From a candidate division FCPU426 bacterium (GTDB lineage: Bacteria; Oederibacteriota; JAAXVQ01; JAUVAV01), in contig JAUVAV010000001.1 of the NCBI GenBank assembly GCA_030591525.1, positions 1-64,000 of the forward strand: DNA of 64,000 nucleotides, in the 5' to 3' direction. Below, piece by piece: positions 10,479 through 26,432 of this stretch; position 1 is the first letter of the stretch, and every line of letters starts with the position of its first letter. The notes below the pieces were generated by a model that was given only the letters and a program-made list of their open reading frames with translations, was not told the DNA's origin and did not search any database. The position numbers were made by a program, and so were the translations under genes.

Positions 10479-11489
10479 TTACCCGGTGTTTTGTTTGGGA
10501 AATGGTAGAATTTTTGCCTTTTTCACGGTCTTTTTAGCGGTCTTCTTCACGGTCTTCTTCACGGTCTTCTTCACGGCCTTTTTCACGGCCTTCTTCACGG
10601 TCTTCTTCACGGCCTTCTTCACGGTCTTCTTCACGGTCTTATACCTGCTTATTTTTTTTCTCCGGACTGCCTTTACGCGCAGCGCGGTAACAGGTTTTAT
10701 CTCTATCGGCTCTTCTTTTGGTTCCTCCCTAACCTCGCTTATTGCCTTTGTTTCTACCGGCACCTCGGGTTGGAGCTCTGTTTTTTTCTCTGCTTCAGGA
10801 AGAACAGCTGTTGGTTTTAATTTCTCCTGCTCGAGTTTATCAGTCTCATATTGGGATGGAATCCGGATTTCCTCGTCCGGTGGTCTTTCCACCATTTTCC
10901 CTGGTTTGCGTCTTTGCTGGGTTCGGCGCCAATATAAATAAACCACTGTACTTAATAAAACGAATACAATTAAAATCATTGCCAGCCAACCAGCAGTTCC
11001 GGACCTCGTATCAGCGGTTGATATCGGCCTGCGGGCTGCCATTACAGACGGAATTGGCGTAGGGGTATACATAATCTCGTCGCCCGGAATCAAAGGAGGA
11101 AGAGCAGCCGTATCTTCAACCGCTTCGGCTTGGTCGCTTTCCCTCCCAGTCGTAAATTCTTCTTCCCAAGTATCCTCAGGTTCATAGACCCCGGGCGAAG
11201 ACACCGGAACAACGGGGACTCGGCTTATCGTTGGAAACGGCGTGGGTTGCAACTTCGGAGTGGGTTTTGGGGATGGTTCAATCCAGGGAGTTTGTTCCGG
11301 GATCGCTCCTTCGGCTTCGCTCCCTTCGGCTTCGCTCAGGACAGGCAGCATCGGTGAAGCCGGGGTGGCAATGACGGCCGGAGTAGGCGGCAAATCCTCT
11401 GATTTAATGGTTTCTTTAGATGGCGCGCAAGAAATCACCAAGCATAATCCAATAGAAAATAGAGCATAATAAATTTTCTTATTAGCCAT
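10479..11489 (-). CDS. lipoprotein/membrane protein with histone-H1-like lysine tail
   Basis: 336 residues, family not recognised. Parts in order: signal with lipobox ending L-V-I-S-C (Cys near 21); a Pro/Thr/Ser/Glu-rich linker to about 160; a transmembrane helix around 166-186 (LAMILIVFVLLSTVVYLYW) followed by Arg residues; an acidic-basic linker; and a tail of about a dozen KKTV/KKAV units. If both anchors are used, the tail lies on the cytoplasmic side and could bind DNA or another polyanion; this is inference. I start at the second ATG, five bases after GGAGG. It lies 18 bp downstream of the NtrC-type gene and is probably co-transcribed. A dispersed repeat encodes residues LSEAEGSEAEG in the linker. 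Confidence 0.7.
   Translation of the reverse strand: MANKKIYYALFSIGLCLVISCAPSKETIKSEDLPPTPAVIATPASPMLPVLSEAEGSEAEGAIPEQTPWIEPSPKPTPKLQPTPFPTISRVPVVPVSSPGVYEPEDTWEEEFTTGRESDQAEAVEDTAALPPLIPGDEIMYTPTPIPSVMAARRPISTADTRSGTAGWLAMILIVFVLLSTVVYLYWRRTQQRRKPGKMVERPPDEEIRIPSQYETDKLEQEKLKPTAVLPEAEKKTELQPEVPVETKAISEVREEPKEEPIEIKPVTALRVKAVRRKKISRYKTVKKTVKKAVKKTVKKAVKKAVKKTVKKTVKKTAKKTVKKAKILPFPKQNTG
10518..10640 (-). repeat. 12-bp coding tandem repeat (KKTV/KKAV)
   Basis: About ten tandem units related to TTCTTCACGGTC on the plus strand, encoding the lysine tail. Units differ mainly at one base (GTC versus GCC, Val-Thr versus Val-Ala), so the copy number is probably unstable by slippage. Confidence 0.85.
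11308..11345. repeat. dispersed CCTTCGGCTTCGCTC repeat inside a gene
   Basis: Two copies of CCTTCGGCTTCGCTC followed by AGGACAGG. The same module occurs between genes at 40683-40734. Here it is in frame and encodes LSEAEGSEAEG in the lipoprotein linker. Confidence 0.85.
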
Positions 11490-11507
11490 CATATCCTCCA
11501 TCTGTTT

Positions 11508-13181: not shown

Positions 13182-13210
13182 ATTCTAATAATCCGCCTAA
13201 AACTTGTCAA
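13182..13210 (-). promoter_or_regulatory. promoter of the tRNA-Gly/tRNA-Cys unit
   Basis: Minus-strand TTGACA (13210-13205), 17-bp spacer, TAGAAT (13187-13182); the tRNA begins 14 nt further on. The -35 box overlaps the stop codon of the ExeA-like gene. Confidence 0.75.
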
Positions 13211-14037
13211 GCTTTATCCCCGGCTGTCAAACCCAGATCATTTCCCACGCCCACTATAACCTCTTCATCCACTGTTTCCTTTTTAATTAAAAAACTTTCC
13301 AATAAAGCATTATCGCAAATAGTATTGATTAAACGCGGAATCCCTTGGGAATATTGGTACACCTTCCGGCAGGCGCCGGAAGAAAATATTCCCGCTTCGC
13401 CCTCGACCGTGTTCATCCGATGGTGGATATACTCCACCACGTCCTCTTCTTTAAGACTCGGAAGAACAAATTTCAGTGCTATACGCTGCCGCAACGGTGG
13501 ATCGAGCGCAATATTTTGCTCCAACTCCGGAAGCCCGACCAAGACAATAGAAAGAAGTTTTTGTCCCGGCACTTCAAGGTTTAGCAGTCCCCGGAACTCT
13601 TCAAAAATTCCCCGACTGACCAACATGTTGGCTTCATCGATAATTACCACGGCTTTTTTTCCCGCTTCGTGGATATCCATAAGACGTTCACATAGCGCGG
13701 GAAGGATTTCGGCTTTTTTTTCCCCGGGATCTTCAACCCCGAGTTGCAACGCTATTTTACGCAACAGCCATTCCGCTGTAATTTCGGAATGAATAATTAC
13801 CAGCAAAGAGGCTTCAAAATTCCCGTCATTTTCCAGGTTTTCCAAAAGCTTGCGGGCCAATAAAGTCTTGCCGCAGCCCAGTTCCCCTAACATAACCGCG
13901 AGGCCTTTCATGGTATTAATGCAATGCATCATCCTGATCAGCGCTTCGGCATGCTGCCGGCTTTCATAAAAAAAACGGGGCTCCGGTGCGTTGGAAAACG
14001 GTTGTCCTTTCAGTTTGAAAAAAGATTCATAGCTCAA
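13207..14037 (-). CDS. ExeA/GspA-like AAA ATPase
   Basis: 276 residues. The start YESFFKLKGQPFSNAPEPRF is the standard opening of the ExeA family. Walker A reads GELGCGKT (about 51-58) and Walker B VVIIDEAN. ExeA-type ATPases help assemble secretion channels through peptidoglycan, and relatives sit in exopolysaccharide and Tn7-like systems. This copy is short and lacks the C-terminal transmembrane and peptidoglycan-binding parts of full ExeA, so it is probably a soluble ATPase. It follows the TPR protein by 17 bp in one operon, which suggests a joint role in envelope assembly or secretion. Confidence 0.83.
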   Translation of the reverse strand: MSYESFFKLKGQPFSNAPEPRFFYESRQHAEALIRMMHCINTMKGLAVMLGELGCGKTLLARKLLENLENDGNFEASLLVIIHSEITAEWLLRKIALQLGVEDPGEKKAEILPALCERLMDIHEAGKKAVVIIDEANMLVSRGIFEEFRGLLNLEVPGQKLLSIVLVGLPELEQNIALDPPLRQRIALKFVLPSLKEEDVVEYIHHRMNTVEGEAGIFSSGACRKVYQYSQGIPRLINTICDNALLESFLIKKETVDEEVIVGVGNDLGLTAGDKA

Positions 14038-16423: not shown

Positions 16424-16511
16424 GCCGGAGTGGTGAAATTGGTAGACGCAGAGGACTCAAAATCCTCCGCCTTTCGCGGGCATGTCGGTTCGAGTCCGAC
16501 CTCCGGCACCA
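16424..16511 (+). tRNA. tRNA-Leu (CAA)
   Basis: 88 nt with a long variable arm, as expected for a class II tRNA. Acceptor GCCGGAG/CTCCGGC, discriminator A, encoded CCA, and anticodon loop CTCAAAA giving CAA, which reads UUG. Confidence 0.94.
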
Positions 16512-16583: not shown

Positions 16584-17453
16584 TTAAGAAGAGCGTTTAT
16601 CCACCACAAAATCGCTTTTCTTCATTTTTTGAGCATACTGCTTTAATTCGTTGGCGATATCGTCAATTTGGGCGCAATGCGCCAAACTGCGGCGTTCATT
16701 GGTTACCACGCCTATGGTTAGAGGCATTATAGGATATTTCAAGACCTCGCCTTTCCGGTTAATGTTAATAATATACCCTTGCTTTCGATCTTCTTTATCG
16801 TATTGTTGGGCAATCAACTGCTCAAAGTTTTCAATTAGCTTGGAGCATATCAAGGAATACTTTTCAGGAGTAGTTACTATCACGAAATTATCTCCGCCTA
16901 AGTGTCCGATGACATCAGTCGGATTGCCGTAATCCCGGGTAACATCATAAATAACCAAGGCGGTAAATTTCAGCAGCTTATCACCACGCTGGTAACCATA
17001 GCGCAAATTATAGGCCCGGAAATTGTCAAGGTCGATATAGCAAATTGCGGTTTTTAACCGTTCGGAAAGGCGGCGGTCTATTTCCTGCTGGACAAAGAAA
17101 TGATCAGGCAGATTGGTAAGAGGATGAACCCGGGCGGCTCCCTTGGAAGCAGCATATCCTTCTTCCATTTCGGAACCAATATTGAATTGGTGAAGATCTT
17201 TGACCTTCTTCTTCAACATTTCATCCTGCAGAAAAACCGAGGAAGTTATTAAGTCATTAATTCTTAAATTATTACTCTCCAGGGTTTCTTTGAGGGAAAT
17301 AATTTTCTTCACCATGGCCTTAGTGTATTTTCTATGTCCGGAAGGCACACGCACAGGGGAAATAAGGCCAAGACTTTCCCAGTAACGCAGAGTTCTTTCC
17401 GATAAGCCGCTTAATTTTGCCGTAGCTCCAATACCTACCAGTTTATCTTTCAT
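16584..17453 (-). CDS. MerR-type regulator fused to a degenerate GGDEF domain
   Basis: 289 residues. Residues 6-75 are a MerR winged helix (T-A-K-L-S-G-L-S-E-R-T-L-R-Y-W-E; S-G-H-R-K-Y-T). A short coiled linker follows, then a GGDEF fold at about 110-285 beginning PLTNLP and containing C-Y-I-D-L-D-N-F. The active-site loop reads GGDNF (186-190) where cyclases need GGDEF or GGEEF, so cyclase activity is doubtful; the domain may instead sense a nucleotide and switch the DNA-binding half. This is inference. I use the ATG at 17453; a GTG lies four codons upstream. It follows tyrS on the same strand but has its own promoter. Confidence 0.85.
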   Translation of the reverse strand: MKDKLVGIGATAKLSGLSERTLRYWESLGLISPVRVPSGHRKYTKAMVKKIISLKETLESNNLRINDLITSSVFLQDEMLKKKVKDLHQFNIGSEMEEGYAASKGAARVHPLTNLPDHFFVQQEIDRRLSERLKTAICYIDLDNFRAYNLRYGYQRGDKLLKFTALVIYDVTRDYGNPTDVIGHLGGDNFVIVTTPEKYSLICSKLIENFEQLIAQQYDKEDRKQGYIININRKGEVLKYPIMPLTIGVVTNERRSLAHCAQIDDIANELKQYAQKMKKSDFVVDKRSS

Positions 17454-17538
17454 GATTAAATCCACCCTTTAATATTTTTTTAAACAAAATATACAAAGTT
17501 GGAAATATAACAAATTATAATACGCAAAATTTCCATTT

Positions 17539-17576
17539 ACTATAATATAGTGTACTACAACTAATTTTTTTGTCAA
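17539..17576 (-). promoter_or_regulatory. promoter with long spacer and dyad ahead of the MerR-GGDEF gene
   Basis: Minus-strand TTGACA (17576-17571) is followed by the palindrome ACTATAATATAGT (17539-17551). With ACTATA as -10 the spacer is 19 bp, the over-long spacing typical of promoters activated by MerR proteins. Autoregulation is therefore plausible. Confidence 0.5.
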
Positions 17577-17624: not shown

Positions 17625-18842
17625 TTATACTATACGTATCCGGCCAAATTTTCTTTTACCAATTTGAACGACCAAACCATTTTTAATTAAAACATCCTGC
17701 CTATGATCTATAACCTTTTCCTGATTGATTAATACCGCGCCTTGACATACCATTCTTTGGCCTTCTGCTTTAGTGGCTACCAATCCCATTTCGTATAGTA
17801 AATTTATTATCCATATTTTGCCGTCTTTTAAATTTGCGGCCGCTATAATTTTTTCAGGAATGTCCGCGGGCAATTCCCGGTCTCTAAATATCCGGTCGAA
17901 CTCTTGGACTGCGAGTTGGGCGGCTTTTTCACCGTGATATTGACTTACAATTCTTCCGGCCATGTCAGCCTTAACCTTCCGAGGATGAAGGTTATTAGCT
18001 TTTAAATCCCGGCGTATCTGTTCCAGGCTGCCAAGCTCAATATCCGTTAATAATTCAAAATATTTAAACATTAAATTATCCGGAATACTCATTAACTTTC
18101 CGAACATTTCCTGTGGGGGATCTGTCACTCCTACGTAATTGCCTAAACTTTTGGACATTTTTTGAACTCCATCCAAACCTTCTAAAAGGGGCAAAGCTAT
18201 GATAACTTCCGGCGATTGTCCAAAATCCTGCTGCAGCGACCGGGCCACGAGACAGTTGAATATCTGGTCGGTTCCACAAAGTTCAATATCTGATTTCAGC
18301 ACTACTGAATCATAGCCTTGAATGAGAGGATAGAGCAATTCGTGCAATCCTATCGGCCGGCCTTCCCGAAAGCGTTTTTCAAAGTCATCGCGCTCCATTA
18401 TCCGCGCCACTGTATACCGGGCGGCCAACCGGACTACTTCGGTGAAGTTCATGGCATTACACCAAGCGCTGTTGTAGACTACTTCGGTCTGTTCCGGAAG
18501 CAATATTTTAAAAACCTGCTCCTGGTAGGTCTGAGCGTTGAGCATAATCTGTTCCTGGCTGAGCGGAGGACGGGTGGTTGAACGGCCGGTGGGATCTCCG
18601 ATCATTCCGGTAAAATCCCCGATTAAAAACTGTACGGTATGACCCCATTCCTGCAACTGACGCAGTTTCCTTAAAACTACGGTATGCCCCAGATGAATAT
18701 CCGGGGAAGAAGGATCAGCGCCATACTTTATTTTCAAACGCACGCCGGGTTTTATTTTTTCTCTAAGTTCGGCTTCACTGATAATCTCCGCGCATCCCCG
18801 GCGGATTATTTTAAGCATTTCTTCCATTTCCAAGTAATTCAC
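17625..18842 (-). CDS. tyrS: tyrosyl-tRNA synthetase
   Basis: 405 residues. It charges tRNA-Tyr with tyrosine in the cytoplasm. Class I signatures are the HIGH-type P-D-I-H-L-G-H-T (about 46-53) and KMSKS (about 230-234). A C-terminal S4 RNA-binding domain (VCQGAVLINQEKVIDHRQDV) is present. Length fits the bacterial enzyme. Upstream I see no T-box leader, so control by tRNA charging is not supported. Confidence 0.96.
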   Translation of the reverse strand: MNYLEMEEMLKIIRRGCAEIISEAELREKIKPGVRLKIKYGADPSSPDIHLGHTVVLRKLRQLQEWGHTVQFLIGDFTGMIGDPTGRSTTRPPLSQEQIMLNAQTYQEQVFKILLPEQTEVVYNSAWCNAMNFTEVVRLAARYTVARIMERDDFEKRFREGRPIGLHELLYPLIQGYDSVVLKSDIELCGTDQIFNCLVARSLQQDFGQSPEVIIALPLLEGLDGVQKMSKSLGNYVGVTDPPQEMFGKLMSIPDNLMFKYFELLTDIELGSLEQIRRDLKANNLHPRKVKADMAGRIVSQYHGEKAAQLAVQEFDRIFRDRELPADIPEKIIAAANLKDGKIWIINLLYEMGLVATKAEGQRMVCQGAVLINQEKVIDHRQDVLIKNGLVVQIGKRKFGRIRIV

Positions 18843-21643: not shown

Positions 21644-21679
21644 AGTTGTAGGGGCGACGCATGCGTCGCCCCTACAACT
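21644..21679. repeat. 36-bp perfect palindrome at the PPDK stop
   Basis: AGTTGTAGGGGCGACGCA followed by its exact complement. It touches the PPDK stop codon. The inner 30 bp are identical to the palindrome at 24641-24670 on the other side of the gene. Confidence 0.92.
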
Positions 21680-24549
21680 TACTTTTTCTTCCCTTTACCC
21701 GCCGACTTCTTAGCCGTTTTTTTCGCGGACCGGGCGATCTTTTTCACCGCTTTTTTCACGGTCTTTTTCACGGCTTTTTTACTAACCGGCTTGCTGCTTA
21801 CCGGCTTTTTCTTAGCTCCCGCAGCCTTTACCGCTAGCTTGACCGCCTGAGACTTGTTTTTAGCCTCCTGCTTGGACTCGATCGCAGCCTGGGCAGCAGC
21901 CAGACGCGCAATGGGTATACGGTAGGGCGAGCAGGAGACATAGTCTAATCCGATATTATGGCAGAACGCTACTGAGGCCGGATCACCGCCGTGTTCTCCG
22001 CATATACCCAGTTTGATTTTCGGCCTGGTGGAGCGGCCTTTTTGCACAGCCATATCCACCAATGCGCCTACGCCTTTGACGTCCAGGGTCTGGAAGGGAT
22101 CTTTCTCCAGAATTTTCTTTTCCTGGTAGGCATTAATGACTTTGCCCGCGTCGTCCCGTGAAAAGCCAAAGGTGGTTTGGGTTAAATCATTGGTCCCGAA
22201 AGAAAAGAATTCCGCTTCCTTCGCGATTTCATCCGCTGTCACGGCCGCACGCGGCAGTTCAATCATGGTCCCGATCATGTAGCCGAGCTTTACGCCTTTC
22301 TCTTTTTGCACCTGCCGGATTACCTGCTCGGCCAATACTTTTTGATTTTTTAATTCTAAAACATGGCCGATTAGGGGAATCATGATCTCCGGCATTACCT
22401 GATTGCCCTCGGCTGTACATTCGGCCGTGGCTTCGGCAATGGCTCTCACCTGCATCTCGGTAATTTCCGGGTAGGTAATACCCAGCCGGCAGCCGCGGTG
22501 TCCCAGCATGGGATTCAGTTCATGCAATTCCTGGACCCGGGCCAGCAGCTTTTTTTTCTCCGCCAGTTCCGGCGCTTCCGGATTGACGGCCTCAATTTTG
22601 GCTATCTCAACCATGAGTTCTTCCCGCTTGGGCAGAAACTCGTGCAAGGGCGGATCCAGCAGCCGGATAGTTACCGGAAAACCTTGCATGCTGTCAAAAA
22701 GCCCCTTAAAGTCTGAACGCTGCATGGGAAGCAGTTTATCCAGAGCGGCCCGGCGGCCCGGCTCGTCAGTGGCCAGGATCATTTCCTGCATATAGGGCAG
22801 CCGGTCTTCGGCAAAGAACATATGCTCAGTCCGGCAGAGCCCGATACCCTCGGCCCCAAATTCACGCGCTTTCTCGGCATCCCGGGGAATGTCCGCATTG
22901 GCCCGGACTTTCAATCTCCGGAACTCATCCGCCCACACCATGAATTCGGAAAACTCTTCTGACAACTTAGGCGCCATAGTCTTGACCCGGCCTTCCAGAA
23001 CCCGGCCGGTCGCGCCGTCCAGAGTGATCCAGTCGCCTTGCTTAAAGGTTTTACCGCCCACTTCCAGGGCTGTCCCGCTTTCATGAATTTTGACATCCTC
23101 GCAGCCGGCTACGCAGCATTTGCCCATGCCCCGGGCCACCACAGCCGCGTGGCTGGTCATGCCGCCGCGGGCGGTTAAAATTCCCCGGGAAACCTCCATG
23201 CCGTGAATATCATCCGGACAGGTTTCCTCGCGAACCAGAATCACTTCCTCATCCTTTTCCTCAGCCCAGCGAACCGCGTCTTCGGCCGTAAAAACTATCT
23301 TGCCGGACACCGCCCCCGGCGAAGCCGGCAGGCCCTTGGCCAGAACATTAATTTCAGCCGTGGGATCTATGATCGGATGCAGCAAATGGTCGAGTTGGGC
23401 CGGAGCTACCCGTTGTATGGCCTCTGCTTTGGTTATCAGGCCCTCTTTCACCATCTCTACGGCGATCCGGATAGCCGACTGGGCCGTGCGTTTGCCGGCG
23501 CGGGTCTGCAGCATATAAAGCCGACCGCGTTCAATCGTAAACTCGAAATCCTGGATATCCCGGTAATGTTTTTCCAGACGCTTGGTAATAGCATGCAATT
23601 GCTTGAAAACCGCGGGCATTTCTTCGGACAACTTGGCAATCGGCAGGGGGGTACGCACCCCGGCCACTACGTCCTCTCCCTGGGCATTGGTCAGGTATTC
23701 GCCGTAAAAATGATTTTCACCGGTCGAAGGATTGCGGGTAAACCCGACGCCGGTTCCGGAGTCATCTCCCATATTGCCGAAAACCATGGCCTGAATATTA
23801 ACCGCCGTGCCGAGTGAAGAGGGGATATCATTCATTTTGCGGTAGTAGATCGCCCGATCGTTATTCCAGGATTTAAAAACCGCGTCCCGGGCCATGGTTA
23901 GCTGGGTCATGGTGTCCTGAGGAAAATCACGGCCGGCCTTCCGCCGCGTAATCTCCTTGTAGGTAATGATCAGACTTTTTAAATCATCCGCTGTCAGCTG
24001 AGTATCGAGTTTTATCCCCTGCTCGGCTTTCTTGGCGGTCAGGGCCTTTTCATACGCTTCCTTCTCAACCCCCAGCACCACACTGCCGAACATCTGGATA
24101 AACCGGCGGTAGCTGTCATAAACAAAACGCTCATTGCCGGTGGCGTCCGCAAATCCCTGAACCGTCACATCATTCAACCCGAGGTTCAGGATGGTATCCA
24201 TCATGCCCGGCATGGAAAATTTCGATCCCGAACGCACTGAAACCAGCATGGGGTTCTTGGGATCTCCGAATTTTTTATTCATGGTTTTTTCCAGCCTGAT
24301 AATATTAGCTTTGATTTGGTCATCCAGCCCGGCCGGCACCTGCTTCCGGTTTTCATAATAAAGATTACAGGTTTCGGTGGTAATGGTAAAACCGGCCGGC
24401 ACGGGCACACCGGTATTAATCATCTCCGCCAGACCGGCGCCCTTGCCTCCCAAAAGATCACGCATGCTGCCGCTTCCCTCTGCCTTGCCTTTTCCGAAAA
24501 AGTACACAAATTTTTTCTTGTTTGCCGCCTTGATAATTTTAGTCGCCAT
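21679..24549 (-). CDS. ppdK: pyruvate, phosphate dikinase with lysine-rich tail
   Basis: 956 residues. It interconverts pyruvate, ATP and phosphate with PEP, AMP and pyrophosphate; in such bacteria it can run in glycolysis or gluconeogenesis. The ATP-grasp domain comes first (LGGKGAGLAEM), then the swivelling domain with catalytic His in GGMTSHAAVVARG, then the PEP/pyruvate barrel (SFGTNDLTQTTFG; LGICGEHGGDP). The standard enzyme ends near residue 890; here about 55 residues follow with K-K-A-V-K-K-T-V-K-K units, like the tail of the lipoprotein at 10479. Start MATKIIKAANKKK. Identical palindromes lie immediately beyond both ends. Confidence 0.95.
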   Translation of the reverse strand: MATKIIKAANKKKFVYFFGKGKAEGSGSMRDLLGGKGAGLAEMINTGVPVPAGFTITTETCNLYYENRKQVPAGLDDQIKANIIRLEKTMNKKFGDPKNPMLVSVRSGSKFSMPGMMDTILNLGLNDVTVQGFADATGNERFVYDSYRRFIQMFGSVVLGVEKEAYEKALTAKKAEQGIKLDTQLTADDLKSLIITYKEITRRKAGRDFPQDTMTQLTMARDAVFKSWNNDRAIYYRKMNDIPSSLGTAVNIQAMVFGNMGDDSGTGVGFTRNPSTGENHFYGEYLTNAQGEDVVAGVRTPLPIAKLSEEMPAVFKQLHAITKRLEKHYRDIQDFEFTIERGRLYMLQTRAGKRTAQSAIRIAVEMVKEGLITKAEAIQRVAPAQLDHLLHPIIDPTAEINVLAKGLPASPGAVSGKIVFTAEDAVRWAEEKDEEVILVREETCPDDIHGMEVSRGILTARGGMTSHAAVVARGMGKCCVAGCEDVKIHESGTALEVGGKTFKQGDWITLDGATGRVLEGRVKTMAPKLSEEFSEFMVWADEFRRLKVRANADIPRDAEKAREFGAEGIGLCRTEHMFFAEDRLPYMQEMILATDEPGRRAALDKLLPMQRSDFKGLFDSMQGFPVTIRLLDPPLHEFLPKREELMVEIAKIEAVNPEAPELAEKKKLLARVQELHELNPMLGHRGCRLGITYPEITEMQVRAIAEATAECTAEGNQVMPEIMIPLIGHVLELKNQKVLAEQVIRQVQKEKGVKLGYMIGTMIELPRAAVTADEIAKEAEFFSFGTNDLTQTTFGFSRDDAGKVINAYQEKKILEKDPFQTLDVKGVGALVDMAVQKGRSTRPKIKLGICGEHGGDPASVAFCHNIGLDYVSCSPYRIPIARLAAAQAAIESKQEAKNKSQAVKLAVKAAGAKKKPVSSKPVSKKAVKKTVKKAVKKIARSAKKTAKKSAGKGKKK

Positions 24550-24860: not shown

Positions 24861-26432
24861 TTATTTCAGCTTTTTTATTACTTTCAGAAAAGCCTCCACT
24901 ACCTGGGGATCGAATTGAGTACCCGAACCCTCCCGTATCATTTTCAAGGCTTCTTCCCGGGTAAAAGCCTTGCGATACGGCCGGTTTGTGATTAAAGCTT
25001 TATATACATCCGCCACAGCGACAATTCTTGCGCCCAAAGGAATCTCCTCGCCCCGCAATCCGGAAGAATATCCCAGTCCGTCATATCGCTCGTGATGATA
25101 AAGTATGATAAATATTACCTCGTGTAAAAATTGGATGGATTCGATGATCTCCGCCCCGATGCGCGGATGTTTTTTAATCTCCGCGAATTCCCGCTCGTCG
25201 AGTTTGGTTTTCTTGCGTAAAATATCATCTGAGATGCCGATTTTGCCCAAATCATGTAGTATCGCCGCATGCCGCAGGTTTTCTATTTCCCGGTCGGAAA
25301 GCTTGAGTTCTTTTCCTATGCCCACGACTATGGTTACTATATTTTCAGTCTCTTCTCCGAAATAACAATCTTTGGCATTGATGGTTCTGGCAAAGGCATA
25401 TATTGATTCCAATAAGTTCTGGTTCACCCGGTTTTCCATCTTTGCCAGTTTTTCCTTTAACATATCCACATTTTCCTTGCCGCCCTTGGCCGCAATTTTT
25501 TCCATATCCTGCTGGCTTATCCCCTGGGATAGCGAAAGACGGTTCCCTCCCATTTCTTTGGCATTTCGCAAGGCCTGGTCGGATGAATCCAGCAGTCCGG
25601 ATTCCGTATTAAAACCGTCTTCCGGAAAACTGGCTATGCCCATGCTTATTTTAAGTTTTATCCGCTTACCCTCCGCATCGAAAATATGCTCCTGGATGGC
25701 TGCCAACAGCCGTTTTCCAAATTGCAAGGCACCGCTTTTTCCGGTATCGGGCAGCAGTACCAGGAATTCCTCGCCGCCGTATCGAACCACCATGTCATTA
25801 GCCCGGGCGTAACTCAATAAATATCCGGCCAACTCCTTTAAGATCACATCACCGTACTGGTGACCATATACATCATTTATGGATTTAAAATAATCGATAT
25901 CCACCATTAAAATGGAAAGCGGCAAAATATATCGGTGAGCTCTTTTAAACTCCCAGGCCAGCCGTTCGCGCAAGTACCGGTAATTGTGTAAATTCGTAAG
26001 CGGATCTTTTAAGCTGCGCTCTTTTAATTTTTTAATTAAATTTTTGTTTTCCCAGGCGATACTCTGCATTTTAAGGGCTTTTTTAATGGTTATCTTTACC
26101 TCGTCCATATTTAGCGGTTTTTGCAGATAAGCAAATGCCCCGCGGTTCATGGCGTTAATCGCGCTTTCCACGGACGCAAAACCGGTACAAACGACAATCA
26201 TGAGATCGGTATTCCGGCTTTTCCTTCCCTTGAGCAACTCTAATCCCGAGCCATCGGGAAATTTAATATCCAGTAGTACCAGGTTATAAAATTCTTCCCT
26301 TAATTGCTGCCGGGCCAGTTCGATAGACTCCACGCCGGTGTTTTTATATCCTTCCTCGCCTAAAATATCTATTAGGTTTTCACGCATGTTATCATCATCA
26401 TCAACTATCAAAATCTTGATGTCTTTTTTCAT
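24861..26432 (-). CDS. response regulator with GGDEF and HD-GYP-type domains
   Basis: 523 residues. Receiver 5-120 with phospho-Asp 55 (LVLLD); GGDEF domain about 140-300 with an intact active-site GGEEF (219-223), predicted to make cyclic di-GMP; HD domain about 335-520 with H-D at 393-394 (LHDLGKIG) and HHERYDGLGYS near 446-456. The HD-GYP signature normally ends G-Y-P; here Pro is Ser. Synthesis and breakdown of cyclic di-GMP may both reside in this one output protein. It is the last gene of the kinase operon, 10 bp after the single-domain receiver. Confidence 0.92.
   Translation of the reverse strand: MKKDIKILIVDDDDNMRENLIDILGEEGYKNTGVESIELARQQLREEFYNLVLLDIKFPDGSGLELLKGRKSRNTDLMIVVCTGFASVESAINAMNRGAFAYLQKPLNMDEVKITIKKALKMQSIAWENKNLIKKLKERSLKDPLTNLHNYRYLRERLAWEFKRAHRYILPLSILMVDIDYFKSINDVYGHQYGDVILKELAGYLLSYARANDMVVRYGGEEFLVLLPDTGKSGALQFGKRLLAAIQEHIFDAEGKRIKLKISMGIASFPEDGFNTESGLLDSSDQALRNAKEMGGNRLSLSQGISQQDMEKIAAKGGKENVDMLKEKLAKMENRVNQNLLESIYAFARTINAKDCYFGEETENIVTIVVGIGKELKLSDREIENLRHAAILHDLGKIGISDDILRKKTKLDEREFAEIKKHPRIGAEIIESIQFLHEVIFIILYHHERYDGLGYSSGLRGEEIPLGARIVAVADVYKALITNRPYRKAFTREEALKMIREGSGTQFDPQVVEAFLKVIKKLK

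Follow-up and report, generated by a model that had tools for sequence, protein, structure and literature searches.

A MerR-type DNA-binding domain joined to a degenerate GGDEF domain in a candidate division FCPU426 bacterium and its phylum: a candidate guanine-nucleotide-responsive regulator

Control of a MerR-like regulator by contact with GGDEF proteins is described for the curli switch of Escherichia coli, in which MlrA is paired with DgcM and PdeR (PMC5052742 and PMC5635695). There, MlrA and DgcM are distinct polypeptides, and DgcM has cyclase activity. BrlR of Pseudomonas aeruginosa likewise ties a MerR-type helix-turn-helix (HTH) to cyclic-dinucleotide signalling; its effector domain is GyrI-like, c-di-GMP is bound by the DNA-binding part, and there is no GGDEF domain (PMC6028453). 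GTP binding by the degenerate GGDEF domain of Caulobacter CC3396 switches the adjoining domain, the output being an EAL phosphodiesterase and not a DNA-binding domain (PMC7288161). The CC3396 motif is GEDEF (PMC8835794). The window, a stretch of 64,000 nt from a candidate division FCPU426 bacterium, contains a gene that joins a MerR DNA-binding domain to a GGDEF domain with the motif GGDNF, for which a role analogous to that in CC3396 is predicted. Unlike MlrA and DgcM, the two parts form one polypeptide with a degraded active site, making the fusion a possible covalent counterpart of the MlrA–DgcM contact. The fusion is an unusual variant of two known kinds of protein, MerR one-component regulators and degenerate GGDEF effectors; among the papers listed for it from an open-access library, which does not cover all the literature, none reports a MerR–GGDEF fusion.

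The fusion gene occupies 16584..17453 (−) and encodes 289 residues plus a stop codon. The ATG at 17453 is the likely start, as the orthologs open with MKEKL at the same codon; the mechanical ORF list places the start at a GTG at 17465. A MerR domain fused to a degenerate GGDEF domain had been proposed in the sequence-only reading, and this holds: both Pfam domains score above cut-off in one frame and the arrangement is conserved in the phylum. The HTH and wing span residues 8–65 (17259..17432, −). Pfam MerR (PF00376) matches residues 8–43 at 48.5 bits, above the curated cut-off of 28.2, which places the protein in the MerR family by its N-terminal HTH. At an E-value of 0.001 or better, a MerR domain is recovered in 18 of the 19 members aligned; the sequence of the remaining one is clipped by a contig end. 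The entire window genome, a 2.70-Mb draft of 91 contigs that is 96 % complete, has 2 MerR-family matches. TnrA and GlnR respond to glutamine synthetase and, unlike the fusion, have no GGDEF domain. Among solved structures, they come nearest to the MerR part by sequence (4r24, 1.8e-7).

A helical linker, residues 66–108 (17130..17258, −), is the least conserved region, with a helix predicted at residues 65–89 at low model confidence. The pseudo-GGDEF domain follows at residues 109–289 (16587..17129, −), and its degenerate motif, GGDNF, lies at residues 186–190 (16884..16898, −) by ortholog alignment. The Pfam GGDEF match on residues 111–217 (55.3 bits, cut-off 23.8) ends at position 110 of 161, yet homology continues to the C-terminus, and relatives from outside the phylum align across approximately residues 109–288. 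A monomer structure model made from six input sequences has a mean pLDDT of 70, falling below 50 at residues 67–98 and 254–289. Its GGDEF core matches solved GGDEF domains; the linker, C-terminus and dimer geometry are too weakly modelled to be used, and the argument for a regulator rests on no part of the model.

The same fusion is present, full-length or near full-length, in 20 of the 45 phylum genomes searched (one ortholog, L015, is clipped by a contig end). Identity to the window fusion is 85–87 % within the same family and order and 54–62 % elsewhere in the phylum, the closest named relatives being metagenome-assembled genomes labelled candidate division FCPU426 (86 %) and Candidatus Firestonebacteria (85 %). 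A profile (A1) built on 19 of the 20 orthologs, omitting L009 as nearly identical to L008, recovered the same 20 fusions from 384 genomes. With at most six candidates scored per genome, at least 69 of the 339 genomes outside the phylum matched this profile, all without the HTH, and the earliest match starts at residue 39. Thus, no MerR–GGDEF fusion was found among these profile matches of the 339 genomes, and a search of 72,556 plasmid records, with coverage set at 80 %, gave none either. As far as searched, the fusion is confined to one phylum. No full-length match was obtained in the other 25 genomes, including one of the same genus (G001). Part of these absences are assembly gaps: in G006 residues 1–34 of the fusion are present at a contig end, and in G043 the contig stops shortly after a PilZ gene. 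Others look real, as in family f8, in which eight genomes, six of them at least 94 % complete, have no fusion. The 20 fusions group together, with support of 100/100, in a maximum-likelihood tree of 76 rows; the tree was midpoint-rooted on a very long reference branch, and a single origin would be a reading of it and no rooted proof.

The fusion is well conserved relative to its surroundings. Between the window and four relatives (G002, G003, G004 and G007) it is 85–86 % identical, and the adjacent tyrS is 65–68 % identical in the same four. Where other neighbours are present, identities are 67–71 % for a penicillin-binding protein, 77–80 % for pyruvate phosphate dikinase, 73–76 % for an AAA ATPase and 55–57 % for a TPR protein. 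In the other branch of the phylum, eight genomes compared with G012 gave 73–80 % for the fusion, 54–61 % for a PilZ protein and 44–50 % for a TMEM260-like protein; a nearby TrpB-like synthase, named by eye, is about as conserved as the fusion (75–77 %, two genomes). Within the fusion, mean pairwise identity in 19 of the 20 members is 0.83 for the HTH (residues 1–70), 0.56 for the linker and 0.65 for the GGDEF part. Conservation is thus highest in the HTH. If DNA-binding specificity has been maintained throughout the phylum, its targets should be conserved too.

The nearest kin of the GGDEF part is a widespread GGDDF subfamily, to whose members it is 32–42 % identical and among which the fusion clade sits in the tree. 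The fusions share the GHxGGDDF block and the DRxxG stretch after the motif, the motif itself being degraded. In the 55 relatives outside the MerR clade GGDDF is invariant, as is His184 two places ahead of the motif. Input domains among the 54 distinct outside relatives are a receiver in 42, HAMP in 5, EAL in 1 and MerR in none. Given kin that are mostly receiver–GGDDF and never MerR, exchange of the input domain for a DNA-binding domain is the most economical account of the fusion. Receiver–GGDDF regulators and PA3258-like EAL–CBS–GGDDF proteins belong to the same subfamily as the fusion by alignment, tree or match; unlike the fusion, subfamily members have receiver, EAL–CBS or membrane-sensor inputs and an intact GGDDF. 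The Pseudomonas EAL–CBS–GGDDF protein, which matches over the same stretch as the GGDEF part of the fusion, is judged PA3258-like on the basis of its domains and the adjacent gene. GSU1937 is likened to the fusion through its description in PMC8835794 and not by alignment.

The GGDDF subfamily (L021–L030, L033–L035 and L069–L108), with its GHIGGDDF block and conserved DRxxG stretch, is widespread and apparently under-described. Pfam GGDEF matches end near position 110 of 161 in the subfamily members inspected. Additionally, the C-terminal tails of the Omnitrophota receiver–GGDDF proteins L033:11-1198 and L035 resemble, by eye, the c-di-GMP-binding MshEN domain, which the Pfam scan did not flag in L033.

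None of the 20 fusions retains GGDDF: 16 have GGDNF, and GRDNF, GEDNF, GSDDF and GADDF occur once each. The fourth motif residue is thus Asn in 18 of 20 members, so the GGDNF of the window is no sequencing oddity, and Asp in the other two; the Glu expected at this place in a diguanylate cyclase (GG[DE]EF) occurs in 0 of 20. Two further residues that are invariant in the 55 outside relatives are replaced throughout the fusions, Asp150 by Lys (11), Leu (5), Asn (2) or Gln (2) and Lys275 by Gln (18), Ala (1) or Asn (1). Lys275 is presumably the phosphate-binding lysine, an assignment made by motif and PleD numbering. When a changed column was defined as one residue in at least 80 % of relatives and the same residue in at most 25 % of fusions, 10 of 185 columns qualified. 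Three are here related to catalysis (the fourth motif place, 150 and 275); the others are 117, 135, 143, 161, 181, 185 and 279. Four short fragments caught by the profile were excluded from the motif-column count. The three catalytic-site positions have changed in step with the fusion. Many GGDEF domains are dismissed as ‘degenerate’; the fusions are a natural series in which absence of the catalytic residues coincides with a DNA-binding domain.

According to PMC8835794, catalysis relies on the residue at the fourth motif place as a base acting across the dimer, GGDDF can be active, as in GSU1937, and an engineered change of GGDDF to GADDF abolished GSU1937 activity. GADDF is the natural motif of ortholog L015. 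With a base at the fourth place and GADDF inactive in GSU1937, both motif routes taken by the fusions point the same way, and loss of catalysis is predicted; since GGDDF can be active, the ancestor of the fusions may have been an enzyme. The earlier argument that GGDNF speaks against cyclase activity is strengthened by the change of catalytic positions in 20 of 20 fusions.

The predicted nucleotide-pocket residues have been retained. In the alignment columns Asp141, Asn149, Asp158 and Asp188 are present in 20 of 20 fusions. Asp141 and Asp188 are taken here to be the metal aspartates and Asn149 and Asp158 the guanine-binding residues, by motif; on this assignment every fusion has the metal aspartates and the guanine-binding Asn and Asp of diguanylate cyclases. 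Counted from the column list, 43 of the 181 GGDEF columns in A1 are invariant, about a quarter, and the chance that all four pocket residues would be invariant is approximately 0.3 % under column independence, which does not hold. A base-binding aspartate of PleD is named in PMC7288161 and is here equated with Asp158. No fusion among the 20 has the arginine of the RxxD I-site, and 54 of 55 relatives lack it too; a PopA-type receptor site ahead of the motif is thus not found. Loss of catalytic residues with retention of the pocket residues is seen in the fusion alignment, and the invariance of the predicted metal and guanine residues makes nucleotide sensing by the GGDEF domain plausible.

The reading favoured, held tentatively and somewhat short of even confidence, is a one-component transcription regulator whose pseudo-cyclase holds a guanine nucleotide, GTP most probably, and does not turn it over. 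GTP is preferred because the guanine and metal ligands are kept, CC3396 provides a precedent and the I-site is gone. The MerR domain occupies the place of the receiver domain found in most GGDDF relatives, and the protein would work as a dimer. Guanine nucleotide, probably GTP, would be held by the metal aspartates and guanine-recognizing residues of the GGDEF pocket without being turned over, and its binding would alter the packing of the two GGDEF domains. Altered packing would be passed through the helical linker and change the seating of the two HTH domains on DNA. The state of guanine nucleotides or of the c-di-GMP network may in this way be coupled to transcription of a conserved gene set, perhaps including the fusion gene itself. 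The 15 PilZ and 16 GGDEF matches of the genome, and the PilZ-domain gene present at the locus in 12 genomes, count in favour of this reading. The retained pocket residues could be kept for folding instead, and loss of Lys275 might weaken triphosphate binding. A more doubtful extension is that the fusion is a phylum-specific transcription factor sensing free GTP or another guanine nucleotide through its pseudo-diguanylate-cyclase, a core regulator with a role like that of CodY and a different fold. The sensor would then derive from the cyclase of a response regulator that exchanged its receiver for the MerR domain and lost its catalytic residues. With an invariant pocket and a protein better conserved than the adjacent tRNA synthetase, the fusion would be a clear case for a pseudo-cyclase nucleotide sensor; it would also offer a handle on regulation in an uncultured and poorly known phylum.

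The main rival, unlikely as it stands, is that the pseudo-GGDEF is a docking module, with an active cyclase or phosphodiesterase inhibiting or co-activating the MerR part by contact. Proteins known to interact in other systems are often functionally linked when found fused, which counts for docking. The contact of MlrA with DgcM and PdeR is a direct precedent (PMC5052742 and PMC5635695), and further GGDEF proteins are plentiful in the window genome, whose 16 GGDEF matches include two that share a frame. However, pure docking does not require pocket residues that are invariant in 20 of 20 fusions despite loss of the catalytic ones, and no consistent partner adjoins the gene: tyrS and the convergent PilZ and TMEM260-like genes are all lineage-specific. 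tyrS (17625..18842, −) lies upstream and co-directional and is a neighbour in the same family and order only, in 5 of 5 cases (family f1 and the order relative G007). In the other branch a convergent TMEM260-like/TPR gene adjoins the fusion in 12 genomes and a PilZ gene comes next in 11 of these; in G020 the contig ends before the PilZ position, and G042 has the PilZ gene without the TMEM260-like gene.

A tRNA-Leu (CAA) gene at 16424..16511 (+) is convergent with the fusion gene on its downstream side and is similarly placed in G002, G003 and G004; none was seen beside the fusion on the G007 contig. In the other branch tRNA-Leu (CAA) is found on the far side of the PilZ gene in the 11 genomes that have the TMEM260-like and PilZ pair. 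This common tRNA gene points to orthologous loci that differ between the branches by gain or loss of the PilZ block, and it marks the fusion locus as ancestral. Its recurrence beside the fusion across the phylum (window 16424-16511; L038–L055) is an observation in its own right. So is the succession of a PilZ gene and a gene for a TMEM260-like O-mannosyltransferase bearing TPR repeats, which converge on the fusion gene (L045:10013-12499, −, and equivalents), a pair possibly serving c-di-GMP-linked glycosylation.

That the GGDEF part is a c-di-GMP receptor switching transcription, as in PopA, or in BrlR through the MerR domain, is quite improbable. The genome is rich in c-di-GMP components by its GGDEF matches and 15 PilZ matches, a PilZ gene stands at the fusion locus in 12 genomes, and a response of MerR regulators to c-di-GMP has a precedent in BrlR (PMC6028453). 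The PilZ domain is above cut-off in the two locus proteins scanned, and the eight locus proteins inspected carry RxxxR and NxSxxG. However, no PilZ gene of the locus kind was found in the family of the window at E 0.001, the PilZ gene is absent from the window’s own locus, and the convergent gene order means that PilZ is not co-transcribed with the fusion; the positional link to c-di-GMP is thus only suggestive. Moreover, the PopA precedent relies on an intact I-site (PMC5052742), whose arginine is missing from all 20 fusions and 54 of 55 relatives, and the Pfam scan found no GyrI-like domain of the BrlR kind in the fusion.

Reading of (p)ppGpp, or of the GTP to (p)ppGpp ratio, by the pocket instead of GTP alone is decidedly improbable. 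PleD has been solved in complex with ppGpp and with pppGpp (9g85 and 9g86), and 36 of the 45 phylum genomes have a RelA/SpoT synthetase, but the 96 % complete draft of the window genome (G000) has no RelA_SpoT and no HD_4 match, reflecting either loss or an assembly gap. A working diguanylate cyclase controlled by DNA binding is very improbable: although active GGDDF enzymes exist, two fusions retain Asp at the fourth place and the metal and base residues are retained, 16 fusions are GGDNF and two more GRDNF or GEDNF, the Asp-retaining pair are GSDDF and GADDF, of which GADDF is inactive in the tested enzyme, and Lys275 and Asp150 are gone from 20 of 20 (enzyme data from PMC8835794).

The promoter proposed just upstream of the gene, with a palindrome in a 19 bp spacer, fared less well. 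A −35-like TTGACA at 17571..17576 (−) is conserved upstream of the orthologs: 17 of the 19 upstream regions, the window’s among these 17, have it unchanged, whereas L020 has TTGACG and L011 no such box. At a spacer of 19 bp from TTGACA the window has no −10 box: the hexamer there is ACTATA, matching TATAAT at 2 of 6 positions, and better boxes are TACACT at 16 bp (4/6) and TATATT at 21 bp (5/6). A strong −10 at 16–18 bp spacing occurs in 12 of the 19 regions, and L019 is the one ortholog whose −10 scores best at 19 bp; L012, L016, L017 and L018 have TATAA-like boxes by eye, which went unlisted because the scan required T as the last base. The −10 of the window has drifted from the ordinary spacing of its orthologs.

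The palindrome ACTATAATATAGT at 17539..17551 is itself real, but the role of MerR operator given to it is unsupported. It occurs once in the 2.7-Mb genome and is absent near the −35 box in 18 of 18 orthologs examined (L015 has no upstream sequence). As a unique and unconserved sequence with no −10 at the named spacing, it was rejected as a MerR operator/promoter. The 19–20 bp spacer with a dyad of MerR activator-type promoters is therefore not found at the fusion’s own promoter, to which alone this result applies. A conserved operator was sought by comparing dyads and shared 8-mers between fusion promoters and PilZ-gene upstream regions, and none was found; the most frequent shared 8-mer is the −35 box. 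Against simple letter shuffles over 150–200 bp, with PilZ starts guessed and the G044 stretch plainly intragenic, dyad counts in fusion promoters were similar to those of the shuffles, and the PilZ-upstream dyads that stood out come from the tRNA gene. Lineage-specific inverted repeats were detected by script in the spacers of L003, L012, L016 and L019, with no common sequence; ATCAC-AC-GTGAT was noted by eye in those of L007 and L010 and likewise shares no sequence with the other repeats.

Several other genes in the window deserve mention. Approximately 7.5 kb from the fusion gene, 24861-26432 (−) encodes a single protein with a receiver, a GGEEF domain and an HD domain. Its motif is canonical, and the one chain is predicted both to make and to hydrolyse c-di-GMP. 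The proteins at 10479-11501 (−) and 21679-24549 (−) end in histone-H1-like KKTVKKAVKK repeats, and one of the two is the pyruvate phosphate dikinase, named by eye. The AAA ATPase at 13207-14037 (−) resembles the XrtA/PEP-CTERM-associated ATPase at 197 bits, below the cut-off of 324.5, and stands in line with a sigma-54 response regulator.
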